The notes below the pieces were generated by a model. That model worked only from the letters and a program-made list of their open reading frames with translations. It searched no databases and was not told where the DNA came from. A program made the position numbers and the translations under genes. This document shows positions 10,101 through 18,193 of a DNA stretch of 37,275 nucleotides, one piece after another; position 1 is the stretch's first letter; each line of letters starts with the position of its first letter. This stretch comes from Candidatus Doudnabacteria bacterium (lineage in GTDB: Bacteria; Patescibacteriota; Doudnabacteria; UBA920), in NCBI GenBank assembly GCA_003151625.1, contig PLYC01000004.1:4296-41570 (forward strand). Reading direction: 5' to 3'.

Positions 10101-10490
10101 ATGAGTAAGCAAACCAAAAAAGTTACTTTAGAAGCTTTAGCCGCCACAATGGAGGCTGGTTTTAAGCGAATGGAAGGCCATATTGACGGTGTAGAAGGCA
10201 AAGTGGATAGCGGCTTTAAAGCTGTAAGGCAGGAAATGTCAGTCGGTTTTAAGAAAGCCGAGGAAAATAGGGAAGAGCTGGCAAGAATCATATCCAACGG
10301 TTTTGAGCATACGGCCACCAAAGAAGATATTGCAAGGTTAGAAAAGGGCCAAGTTACCCTAGAGCAAGGCCAGGAAAATATTCAGCTTAGAGTGGATAGC
10401 TTCGCTCCCTATTTTGAAGTCAAACACCTTGAACGCCGGGTAAAACGCCTTGAAGACCGCGCCGGAATCCGCCATTCAATACAGCACTAA
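10101..10490 (+). CDS. Coiled-coil protein, paralog 1
   Basis: The 129-residue product is charged and heptad-patterned through most of its length ('AATMEAGFKRMEGHIDGVEGKVDSGFKAV'), implying an alpha-helical coiled coil. It has a conserved end with 'LAPYFEVKHLERRVKRLEDRAGI' character. It resembles small coiled-coil proteins found near toxin or phage genes, but I cannot assign a function. A paralog at 12791-13189 is nearly identical over the last 75 residues and differs in the number of GFKR(M/V) repeats near the N-terminus. Promoter and leader are also duplicated. The transcript is probably leaderless, and a terminator follows 18 bases after the stop. Confidence 0.75.
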   Translation: MSKQTKKVTLEALAATMEAGFKRMEGHIDGVEGKVDSGFKAVRQEMSVGFKKAEENREELARIISNGFEHTATKEDIARLEKGQVTLEQGQENIQLRVDSFAPYFEVKHLERRVKRLEDRAGIRHSIQH

Positions 10491-12790: not shown

Positions 12791-13189
12791 ATGCAAAAGA
12801 ATACTAAAAAAATTACATTAGACGGCTTAGGAGCTACAGTTAGCAACTTATCCGACAAAGTTGATAAACTGACTTCTGCTATGGAGTCCGGTTTTAAGCG
12901 GATGGACACCGGCTTTAAGCGCGTAGATGCTAAAATGGATGCCGGATTTAAAAAGGCTGAAGAAAACCGCGAATCTTTAGCAAGAATGATAGCTGACGGC
13001 TTTGAACATACGGCCACTAAAGAAGATATTACAAGATTAGAAAAGGGCCAAGCTACCCTAGAACAAGGCCAGGAAAACATTCAGCTTAGAGTAGATAGCC
13101 TCGCTCCTTATTTTGAAGTCAAACACCTTGAGCGCCGGGTAAAACGTCTTGAAGACCGCGCCGGAATCCGCAACACAATTCAACACTAA
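12791..13189 (+). CDS. Coiled-coil protein, paralog 2
   Basis: A 132-residue paralog of the protein at 10101. The N-terminal third differs and contains three GFKR/GFKK-type units in a row ('MESGFKRMDTGFKRVDAK'), while the C-terminal 75 residues are almost the same as in paralog 1. It has heptad-like hydrophobic spacing and no signal peptide, so it is probably a cytoplasmic coiled-coil oligomer. The strongly conserved 'VKHLERRVKRLEDRAGI' end may be the functional interface. Function is unknown. Promoter, leader and terminator style match paralog 1, showing duplication of the whole unit. Confidence 0.75.
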   Translation: MQKNTKKITLDGLGATVSNLSDKVDKLTSAMESGFKRMDTGFKRVDAKMDAGFKKAEENRESLARMIADGFEHTATKEDITRLEKGQATLEQGQENIQLRVDSLAPYFEVKHLERRVKRLEDRAGIRNTIQH

Positions 13190-15903: not shown

Positions 15904-15924
15904 GATTGTATTTTCTTTAAGCTT

Positions 15925-15989
15925 GCCCTGTACCACTTAGGCCTACAGGCCTTCGGGTACAGGGCACTTTTTCGCTTCGCGAAAAAGTG
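15925..15989. repeat. Two palindromes next to the tRNA 3' end
   Basis: GCCCTGTACC pairs with GGTACAGGGC (family A type). It is followed at once by CACTTTTTCGC and GCGAAAAAGTG. The second hairpin abuts the CCA end of the interrupted tRNA. Confidence 0.7.
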
Positions 15990-16040
15990 GTGCCGCGGGA
16001 GGGAGTCGAACCCTCATAACCTTGCGGTCGTACGCACCTG

Positions 16041-16070
16041 CCTGTCCGCCGTAGCTTTAGCGAAGGCGGA
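16041..16070. repeat. 30-base palindromic insert in an anticodon loop
   Basis: The insert contains TCCGCC and GGCGGA arms and a CCTG next to a second CCTG of the host loop, so a 4-base CAGG repeat marks one junction. It is related to the palindrome at 7581-7606. It is far too short to be a self-splicing intron. Confidence 0.8.
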
Positions 16071-16081
16071 AAGCGTATGCG

Positions 16082-16245
16082 CCCCGCACCATTTTTTTAA
16101 ACAATTGGTGGCCGAGGAGGGACTTGAACCCTCACGGCCTTGCGGCCATACGTACCTGAAACGTACGTGTATGCCAATTCCACCACTCGGCCTTCAATTG
16201 TTTAAAAATTATTTTGGTTTATATGGGAAAATGGTGCGGGGTAAA
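16082..16245. mobile_element. Insert carrying a complete tRNA-Leu(CAG)
   Basis: This 164-base insert lies between D-loop and D-stem of the host tRNA. It has 14-bp inverted ends, CCCCGCACCATTTT at 16082-16095 and AAAATGGTGCGGGG at 16228-16241. Inside them is a second nested pair, TTTTTAAACAATTG at 16094-16107 and CAATTGTTTAAAAA at 16195-16208, which directly brackets the inner tRNA. The CCCCGCACC end also occurs in the palindrome after uvrA (24601-24634). Confidence 0.75.
16106..16192 (-). tRNA. tRNA-Leu(CAG), intact
   Basis: A complete 87-base class II tRNA with encoded CCA: acceptor GGCCGAG/CTCGGCC, D-stem GTG/CAC, anticodon stem TACGT/ACGTA with loop TTCAGGT (anticodon CAG, reading CUG), a long variable arm (GGCC-GCAA-GGCC), and T-arm with GGTTCAAGTCC. 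It lies inside the D-loop of another tRNA-Leu with the same anticodon and can replace it in function. Confidence 0.95.
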
Positions 16246-16267
16246 TCTGCCATTTCGCCACCGCGGC

Positions 16268-16447: not shown

Positions 16448-18193
16448 CTACTTCCACACCCGTTTTTCCGCCGCGTACCACTGGTTAATAGTATTAAACC
16501 TTTGGCTGGGGTCAAAAAGCACATTTAGGTGGACATTTTTTATGCCGCTGTCTATGGCATAAATATATTCGGTTTGATCCAAAAATATTATCGGGACTTT
16601 AGACATAATTAAGCTGTTAAATTGTTGGTAGTCCTGGGTCTGAACGGTTTTGTCGGTAGTGGTGCGAGCGTCAATAATAAGTTTGTCGGCGACAGGATCG
16701 GAAAAGCCGGTTAAATTAAAGCCCGGATCTTTTACCTGGCTGGAATGCCAAAAAGGGAACGGGTCGGGATCCGCGCCGAATTTTTGCGGAAAAAGCAAAA
16801 CGTCAAAAGTCCTGGGTTTAATGAGTGTATCGGTTAGCTGTTTGCTTGGCAGAATATTTAGGTTAACGGTTATATTTAACGCTTTCCACTGGTCGGCTAA
16901 GGTTTCCGCGGCCTTGGAGTTAACCAGCGAGTCGTTGGTGGATATGGTAAAGGCCAAAGCCTTCCCCTGTTTGTTGGTTCTAATTCCGGTTTTAGGGTCA
17001 ATTTTCCAGCCGGCGCTGTCCAACAAACTTTGCGCCTGATTTATATCTACCGTTGAAGTGGCGGCCGCCACTCCCTGGCCCAGCCAGGGTGATACCGGCA
17101 AAAAAGCATTGCCGCCGAACACATTGTCGATTATCTGCTGTTTATTTGTAGCCAACGAAAGTGCTAACCTGACATTTTGATCGTTTAAAATTTTGTTGTT
17201 CAAGTTAAAGAAGGCAATTTGATACTGGGGCAAAGGGACAGTTAAAATTTGCGCCTGCGGCTGGTTGCTGTCCAGGCGGATGTCACTGCCCAGGGGGACG
17301 AAGCCGAACCCGTCAATTTCCCGGCTGTGAAAAGCGTTTAAGATATCGTCTTCGTTGTCGTAAAATTTAAAAATTAACTGGTCAATTTTCGGTTTGCCGT
17401 CGTAATAGTCCGGATTTGATTTAAGGGAAATTTCTTCAACTTTCCCGCTGGGCAATTTTTTAATTTGTTTAATGGCGTACGGCCCGCTGCCAACCGCTTC
17501 CAAGTTATTTTTAGACAGCAAAAAGTTTTGCGCGTCCACGCTGCCCCAAACGCTTTTGGGTAAAATATGAATGGCCAGATTGTTTATAAACGGTCCGGAA
17601 ATATCTTTAGTGGTAAATTTTACGCTGTAATCGGAAAGTTTGCTAACCGTAGTTGCCTGCCACAGCGGCCAGAGCGGGCTTTTATAGTTGGCGTCTTGCA
17701 AAAGCCCGATGGTAAAAATAACATCATCGGCGGTCAGCGGTTTGCCGTTTTGCCACTTTAAGTTCGGCTTTAAGTTTATGGTGTATTCTTTTTGATCCTG
17801 GGAAATAATAGGCATGCCTTCGGCCAGGTCGGGGACGAGCTGTCCGGTAGAGTCGTATTTATAGAGCCCGGAAAAAATTAAATTGGTTATGGAAAAATCC
17901 GGTTCCATATTTGCCAAAAGGGGATTAATGTAAGTCGGCTGGCCTATGAGGCCTTCGGTGTAGCTGCCTCCGAAATTCGGAGCCGGTATGGTATGGGCGT
18001 AATAAACATTGCGCAAAGAAACAAACAGGCTTAAAACGGCTAAGACAAAAAGCGCCCCAACGGCGATTTTTTCGTTTTTGCCCATTAATGAAAAAACTTT
18101 CCGCAATCGGGAAAGGCTTAAGTGTCTGAGTTCCCTAAAACCCAGAGAAATTTGTTTGCTGTAGGAGATTAAGTTTTGGGAGAAACCGTTCAT
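16448..18193 (-). CDS. ABC transporter solute-binding protein, family 5
   Basis: The 581-residue product is a membrane-anchored binding protein of the peptide/nickel (DppA/OppA, SBP_bac_5) family, which captures oligopeptides or similar solutes for an ABC importer. Family marks include 'PTYINPLLA', 'DLAEGMPIISQDQKEYTINLKPNLKWQNGKPLTADDVIFT' and 'VRLALSLATNKQQIIDNVF'. A single transmembrane helix at about residues 42-60 tethers it after a basic cytoplasmic tail; there is no lipobox. No permease or ATPase gene is next to it, so its transporter partner, if any, is elsewhere. It follows secG by 110 bases of degenerate repeats and may share its transcript. Confidence 0.88.
   Translation of the reverse strand: MNGFSQNLISYSKQISLGFRELRHLSLSRLRKVFSLMGKNEKIAVGALFVLAVLSLFVSLRNVYYAHTIPAPNFGGSYTEGLIGQPTYINPLLANMEPDFSITNLIFSGLYKYDSTGQLVPDLAEGMPIISQDQKEYTINLKPNLKWQNGKPLTADDVIFTIGLLQDANYKSPLWPLWQATTVSKLSDYSVKFTTKDISGPFINNLAIHILPKSVWGSVDAQNFLLSKNNLEAVGSGPYAIKQIKKLPSGKVEEISLKSNPDYYDGKPKIDQLIFKFYDNEDDILNAFHSREIDGFGFVPLGSDIRLDSNQPQAQILTVPLPQYQIAFFNLNNKILNDQNVRLALSLATNKQQIIDNVFGGNAFLPVSPWLGQGVAAATSTVDINQAQSLLDSAGWKIDPKTGIRTNKQGKALAFTISTNDSLVNSKAAETLADQWKALNITVNLNILPSKQLTDTLIKPRTFDVLLFPQKFGADPDPFPFWHSSQVKDPGFNLTGFSDPVADKLIIDARTTTDKTVQTQDYQQFNSLIMSKVPIIFLDQTEYIYAIDSGIKNVHLNVLFDPSQRFNTINQWYAAEKRVWK

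Follow-up and report, generated by a model that had tools for sequence, protein, structure and literature searches.

How does a complete tRNA-Leu(CAG) gene come to lie inside the D loop of another tRNA-Leu(CAG) gene, and what has become of the outer gene? The question is raised by a locus in a stretch of 37,275 nucleotides (the window) from the 1.5 Mb draft genome (34 contigs, labelled G000) of a Candidatus Doudnabacteria bacterium. Bacterial tRNA genes are usually viewed as stable landing sites, not as genes that are repeatedly broken and swapped. The explanation that we favour, with moderate confidence, is that a mobile element once entered a tRNA-Leu(CAG) gene at its D loop, bringing with it a diverged replacement with the same anticodon, and that this nest is the scar it left; the element family probably spreads by GIY-YIG homing.

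Anatomy of the nest and the unlikely splicing of the outer tRNA

The outer gene is a class II tRNA-Leu(CAG) of 86 nt on the minus strand that is interrupted twice, in its D loop and in its anticodon loop. The D-loop insert consists, in order, of TTTA, the arm CCCCGCACCATTTT, a linker, the inner tRNA bracketed by a second inverted pair, and the arm AAAATGGTGCGGGG, while the 3′ part of the outer gene (16081–15988, minus strand, 94 nt) includes a palindrome of 30 nt. The features are, in the direction of the tRNA genes:

16448..18193, minus strand: solute-binding-protein gene, the synteny anchor, with tRNA-Leu(CAG) after its stop codon in most relatives
16246..16267, minus strand: 5′ part of the outer tRNA-Leu(CAG), 22 nt, acceptor strand to D loop
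16082..16245, minus strand: D-loop insert of 164 nt that holds a complete tRNA-Leu(CAG), after base 22, between GGCAGA and CGC
16242..16245, minus strand: TTTA, outside the inverted repeat; not in uninterrupted tRNAs, constant in most related inserts and TTCA in some
16228..16241, minus strand: left outer inverted arm, 14 nt, CCCCGCACCATTTT, its pairing kept by two-sided changes among related inserts
16195..16206, minus strand: left arm of the inner inverted pair, TTTAAACAATTG, in the leader of the inner tRNA
16106..16192, minus strand: complete inner tRNA-Leu(CAG), called by ARAGORN and Rfam
16096..16107, minus strand: right arm of the inner inverted pair, CAATTGTTTAAA, overlapping the final two bases of the CCA end
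16082..16095, minus strand: right outer inverted arm, AAAATGGTGCGGGG, its pairing kept by two-sided changes among related inserts
16071..16081, minus strand: outer tRNA from the D-stem 3′ strand to base 33, read from the sequence; the spliced outer is a tRNA-Leu(CAG)
16041..16070, minus strand: 30-nt palindrome TCCGCCTTCGCTAAAGCTACGGCGGACAGG between host bases 33 and 34 (anticodon loop), a copy of a dispersed repeat
15988..16040, minus strand: outer tRNA from the anticodon CAG to the CCA end, read from the sequence as above
15921..15987, minus strand: two more hairpins 3′ of the outer tRNA, the second being CCCTGTACC...GGTACAGGG-CAAGC

This layout agrees to the base with a preliminary description of the locus, which had reported 22 and 94 host bases, a 164-base insert with inverted ends, and the palindrome. 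In the raw window sequence, ARAGORN and Rfam detected the inner tRNA-Leu(CAG) only. After removal of both inserts, which had been claimed to restore the host, ARAGORN indeed called the outer gene as a complete tRNA-Leu(CAG) of 86 nt. The RNA of the 280 nt that make up the nest was predicted to fold at –127 kcal/mol, compared to –89.5 ± 4.9 for shuffles (z = –7.6); in this fold, the two inverted pairs close the inner cloverleaf. An Rfam search of G000 revealed five intact Leu isoacceptors in one copy each (CAG, CAA, UAA, UAG and GAG), the inner gene being the only intact CAG tRNA found.

The preliminary description had offered two alternatives, namely that the insert broke its host and brought the replacement, or that the outer tRNA is spliced by an unknown route. 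In the latter case, the outer gene would be an intron-bearing gene, from the RNA of which the insert and the palindrome are removed and the halves joined, so that both tRNAs work. Such splicing would suit the observations that every outer stem is intact after removal of both inserts, that the spliced outer scores as a tRNA-Leu(CAG) and that all hairpins sit within loops, and the outer inverted arms would keep the halves together in the fold. However, the splicing endonuclease and ligase that accompany archaeal-type tRNA introns and split tRNAs were not found in G000, as neither PF01974 (tRNA splicing endonuclease) nor PF01139 (RtcB) had a match in the draft genome while controls were positive where expected, and this renders splicing unlikely. 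Moreover, no group I or II intron signature was found in the window, the palindrome in the anticodon loop is a dispersed repeat, and outer tRNAs of related nests (see below) are in part decayed, with those of G036 and of the UAG nest in L107 lacking a half and that of G034 lacking its own anticodon (when spliced, it is read as AGT). We thus consider splicing highly improbable, and the second alternative of the preliminary description was not supported.

A known RNA or intron family within the insert was also considered as a candidate and rejected, because Rfam at gathering scores matches the inner tRNA alone. As a separate observation, a third tRNA of the Leu(GAG)-Val cluster in G027 (L123) and G047 (L147), located downstream of tRNA-Leu(GAG) at a distance of about 200–550 nt, contains an insert that resembles a group I intron on visual inspection.

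Recurrence of nests and distinct ancestry of their partners

Nests were searched for first in relatives, using the 280 nt and subsequently the motif of the left end, and finally in all GTDB r220 contigs, using TGGCAGATTTACCCCGCA. The nests recovered from relatives share the same D-loop site, between GGCAGA and CGC, and the same inverted ends (TTTACCCCGCAC...GTGCGGGG), and were found in Doudnabacteria, Moranbacteria and other Parcubacteria records. CAG-in-CAG nests are present in G000, G001, G003, G009, G010, G017, G026, G030 (three tRNAs deep) and G034, and CAA-in-CAA nests in G003, G040, G041, G046 and G030 (again three deep). UAG-in-UAG nests occur in G042, in a Moranbacteria record (L107), in a Parcubacteria record (L109) and in L103, and a GAG-in-GAG nest, three deep, in L107. 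The frame is not specific to tRNA-Leu, since a Val-in-Val nest in the anticodon loop of a G043 tRNA (L137) has the CCCCGCACC ends of the Leu nests. In all nests found, the inner anticodon equals the outer one wherever the latter is legible.

The junctions are similarly regular: with few exceptions, GA or TA precedes TTTACCCCG on the left, and GGGG precedes the D-stem strand on the right. Although different between elements, the inverted ends keep their pairing: among 11 distinct ends, entered by hand and with counts that depend on that reading, 11 cells had changed on both sides, which exceeded all shuffles of the 3′ letters. Similar frames (CCCCGCACCGTAAC...) hold different tRNA types in G040 and G046 versus G030.

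An exact-motif census of 380 genomes of the phylum confined true nests to the order of G000 itself, with the additional matches in G020, G347 and G274 containing no tRNA; the exact motif under-counts, because the GTDB r220 contig scan did reveal nests in Moranbacteria and other Parcubacteria. The pattern CAGATTTRCCCCGCAC, allowing at most one mismatch, occurs at one place in G000. In relatives, its frame-bearing matches lie in tRNA-Leu and the remaining matches are without a tRNA-bearing frame, noting that this pattern includes D-loop bases and that insertions at other kinds of site could escape it.

Since tRNA genes and palindromes are difficult to assemble, the nest might be suspected to be an assembly chimera of two tRNA-Leu loci. 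However, G001, from the same genus and with its own assembly, has the same frame at the same locus, and nests are present in many other records. Because independent assemblies show the same architecture, a chimera is scarcely credible.

The preliminary description had proposed looking for an uninterrupted tRNA-Leu at this site in relatives, and such genes were indeed found. In most relatives compared, the C-terminal part of the solute-binding-protein gene is followed by a tRNA-Leu(CAG), which is nested or partly nested in 11 genomes (G000, G001, G003, G009, G010, G017, G026, G030, G034, G036 and G043) and single in most others (e.g., G002, G004, G005, G006, G008, G012, G018, G027 and G031). 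Occupied and empty alleles thus alternate among relatives at one orthologous site, as is the case for homing endonuclease elements. A protein tree of 25 taxa requires no fewer than six changes between the single and the nested state, three of them forced by well-supported branches. G002 keeps the tRNA of G000 (95% identity) together with the inner inverted pair, while outer halves and frame are not visible, as expected if outer copies decay.

The inner and outer tRNAs of G000 are 74% identical to each other. The outer one is 91% identical to intact tRNAs of G041 and G045, which belong to another family, and the inner one is 95% identical to the G002 tRNA and 91% to those of G004 and G018. Likewise, in six of the six CAG nests compared, each partner is closer to tRNAs of other genomes than to its own partner. 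The order of types can also be reciprocal, with a GCTCGAG-type tRNA inside a GGGTACG-type one in G026 and a GGGTACG-type inside a GCTCGAG-type in G030. Together with the ancestry of the partners, this reciprocal order fits successive invasions.

These data bear on whether the inner tRNA could instead be a local duplicate of the outer one, trapped by template switching at the palindromes. Palindromes promote template-switching errors, and inner and outer tRNAs share anticodon and place. However, their distinct ancestry and the reciprocal order in G026 and G030 exclude local duplication for the six CAG nests, and the identity between partners is that of random pairs. For the window, we give this reading very little credence. 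At the CAA locus of G041 (L089), on the other hand, the 3′ halves of the outer and inner tRNAs are identical, trailer included, indicating that gene conversion or local duplication also occurs at nests; this locus may represent a local duplication event.

Nest partners were no more dissimilar than random pairs (P = 0.14). Immunity by divergence, in which the partners would be required to be dissimilar, is hence not supported, and this result provides no basis for immunity of the cargo to an endonuclease or for selection for difference. Recurrent nests at the same site, an inner gene that is the sole intact copy, distinct nearest relatives of the two partners and single tRNAs at orthologous sites do lend good support to the first alternative of the preliminary description: the insert broke its host and replaced it with a diverged tRNA of the same anticodon.

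GIY-YIG genes and palindromic hairpins at tRNA loci

No endonuclease ORF is present within the 164-nt insert of the window; GIY-YIG genes are encoded at equivalent loci of G000 and its relatives. PF01541 had nine matches in G000, including UvrC, leaving eight free-standing ORFs; five of these have an intact tRNA at a distance of up to about 200 nt, and a sixth is next to a tRNA containing Ns. Across 21 genomes, 16 of 35 free-standing GIY-YIG loci (17 when counting a gapped tRNA), sampled as best-scoring matches and not at random, had a tRNA within 250 nt, versus a chance expectation of ~0.8 as estimated from about 45 tRNAs per 1.1 Mb. The domain was confirmed by Pfam PF01541 in seven of the ORFs at tRNA loci (E 6e-14 or better).

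Several of these loci have a one-sided layout. The tRNA-Asn locus of G000 (L160, C21:22400-22810) reads TCGGGAGTAGCTCAGCGG[hairpin]TAGAGCAATCG, GIY-YIG ORF, intact tRNA-Asn, with a 51-nt hairpin in the D loop of the 5′ fragment, and the tRNA-Asn loci of G011 and G026 likewise have the ORF between a tRNA 5′ fragment and an intact tRNA. In G007 (L121), the 5′ half of a tRNA-Leu(CAA) is followed by the ORF and then by an intact tRNA-Leu(CAA). In G028 (L082), a GIY-YIG ORF lies inside a broken Leu-UAG.

Two-sided nests that include the ORF were found for Leu-CAA (G036, L135), Gln (G000 and G001), Glu (G010) and Pro (G013, in the order 5′ end, intact tRNA, ORF, 3′ acceptor end). At the Gln locus of G000 (L158, L051; C16:152848-153350), a 5′ half is followed by the ORF, an intact tRNA-Gln(UUG) and a 3′ part, both broken copies having D-loop hairpins; the arrangement of tRNA-Gln with a GIY-YIG ORF also occurs in the relatives G001 and G025. 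The T loop of the intact Gln copy in G000 is unusual (GGTCCGA), that of the broken copy being normal (GGTTCGA). Relatedness of the GIY-YIG proteins by target tRNA is mixed, as an Asn pair (72%) and a Leu pair (67%) are mutual best matches across families while the three Gln-locus ORFs are mutually unrelated.

A second arrangement was noted at three other G000 loci (L157, L161 and L164), where two hairpins (..CCCTGTACC..GGTACAGGG..) lie between a tRNA gene, namely tRNA-Tyr, tRNA-Ala(CGC) or tRNA-Arg(UCU), and a GIY-YIG ORF downstream of it. The hairpins at 15921–15987 of the window are like these, the second one resembling those between tRNA and GIY-YIG gene, and are without an ORF. In addition, a tRNA with two Ns mid-gene (G000:C27:6233-6280; L052, L162) adjoins a GIY-YIG ORF and is possibly another interrupted tRNA left unresolved by the assembler.

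The anticodon-loop palindrome has at least 10 further copies in the 1.5 Mb genome, four of which were read in context; being palindromic, dispersed and present in many copies, it is itself a palindromic mobile repeat and may move by its own means. Approximately fifty insert junctions in outer tRNAs, judged by eye and not independent of each other, map to one of three loops (D, anticodon or T), and no junction was clearly located within a stem or within the variable arm. The loop positions may reflect where an endonuclease cuts, which motifs are targeted, or insertion events that date from a time when the tRNA was still functional. Hairpins that lack cargo but have similar ends (TTTA-CCCC..GGGG and CCCC..GGGG-CAAGC) occupy the same loops of the same tRNAs.

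This might in turn indicate that the D loop received a palindromic, MITE- or REP-like hairpin element whose own loop happens to carry a tRNA-Leu, the nearby GIY-YIG genes being separate hitchhikers. The inverted ends of the frame, with pairing kept by two-sided changes, point in this direction, as do the cargo-less hairpins and the dispersed palindrome. Y1 transposases move palindromic repeats, and their genes are present in G000 (two) and in 15 of the 21 genomes searched. Because the frame ends resemble the cargo-less hairpins, a palindromic transposon fits them as well. However, no tRNA-bearing frame was met outside tRNA genes in the CAGATTTRCCCCGCAC search, unlike what an untargeted transposon would leave at unrelated sites, and no target-site duplication was evident. 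Moreover, G010 and G028 have nests or frames with no Y1 transposase detected, and inner and outer anticodons are identical. On balance, we regard a palindromic element with incidental cargo as possible but doubtful.

Proposed homing with a replacement tRNA, and related systems

In the explanation that we favour, the GIY-YIG endonuclease encoded at equivalent nests (Leu, Gln, Glu, Pro) would cut the uninterrupted tRNA gene, and repair from an element-bearing copy (e.g., imported DNA) would insert the endonuclease gene and a spare tRNA between the halves. The carried tRNA would be the part that makes the insertion survivable, and because each isoacceptor gene is single-copy, selection would retain insertions that carry a tRNA of matching anticodon. 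In the window, the copy would then be a relic that has lost its endonuclease gene, with the replacement tRNA having taken over the job of the broken gene and the outer halves and loop hairpins being non-functional, decaying remains. GIY-YIG homing of the family is suggested by the comparison of loci; against it, the window insert and most Leu nests of the TTTACCCCG type are without an endonuclease ORF. Furthermore, the one-sided GIY-YIG loci (5′ fragment, ORF, intact tRNA) differ from the two-sided frame and could therefore be separate elements.

The inverted repeats around the cargo tRNA probably allow it to fold and to be processed independently of the outer halves that resemble it, with which they may keep it from pairing. 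Leader-trailer pairing is stronger for cargo tRNAs than for other tRNAs (mean –12.7 versus –6.4 kcal/mol, P = 6e-6), a feature of two-sided cargo that the one-sided Asn and Leu loci do not have.

Tyrosine-integrase elements enter the 3′ end of tRNA genes and restore it from a short identical repeat. Like these elements at their att sites, the present inserts target a tRNA gene and keep a functional copy; unlike them, the 164-nt insert entered the D loop, has no integrase ORF and carries a complete, diverged tRNA as replacement. Group I introns in bacterial tRNAs, archaeal tRNA introns and split tRNAs also interrupt tRNA genes, often in loops, and may accompany homing endonucleases, whereas here no intron signature and no splicing enzymes were found and a complete tRNA lies within the insert. 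Palindromic mobile repeats such as yeast mitochondrial GC clusters, double-hairpin elements and Rickettsia palindromic elements resemble the small hairpins of the outer loops, as well as the dispersed TCCGCC..GGCGGA palindrome, but are not known to carry tRNA genes.

SegB of phage T4 is a free-standing GIY-YIG homing endonuclease with a target between the tRNA-Arg and tRNA-Ile genes (PMC2988022). The loci described here share with it the GIY-YIG domain, the association with tRNA genes and a host function that is left intact, but differ in that the tRNA gene is broken inside and a full replacement is carried, the window copy being without endonuclease. In the CPR, insertions in rRNA genes include GIY-YIG-encoding forms and short (<200 bp) ORF-less forms with no intron match, located at the top or base of stem-loops (PMC11270868). 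These come from the same bacterial radiation and have the same two forms, but lie in rRNA and have no replacement gene, and the text of that survey does not mention tRNA (PMC11270868). The present case joins the two systems, in that the CPR insertions lie in tRNA genes and bring an entire spare tRNA with them. In the open-licence literature searched, we found no description of nested same-anticodon tRNA genes, or of GIY-YIG genes with tRNA genes, in these bacteria.

Our judgement is evenly balanced as to whether these nests constitute a new class of mobile element of Patescibacteria. Its working unit would be an entire replacement tRNA framed by inverted repeats, to which a GIY-YIG endonuclease may or may not be added. 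Such elements would time and again disrupt essential tRNA genes that exist in one copy and put foreign copies with the same anticodon in their place, so that different lineages of tRNA invade one another in turn (X in Y in X). If so, the essential, single-copy tRNA genes of a large bacterial radiation would be turned over by selfish DNA that carries its own antidote, a working foreign tRNA, and this would amount to replacement of essential tRNA genes by gene drive. This would help explain the large acceptor-stem differences in tRNA-Leu between close relatives here, and would assign a role that can be tested biochemically to some of the numerous small GIY-YIG genes that these bacteria have. It would also call for caution with tRNA counts or tRNA trees in these genomes, as annotation tools miss most broken copies.

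Elsewhere in the window, the plus strand encodes a pair of close paralogues, both small coiled-coil-like proteins, at 10101–10490 (129 aa) and 12791–13189 (132 aa).
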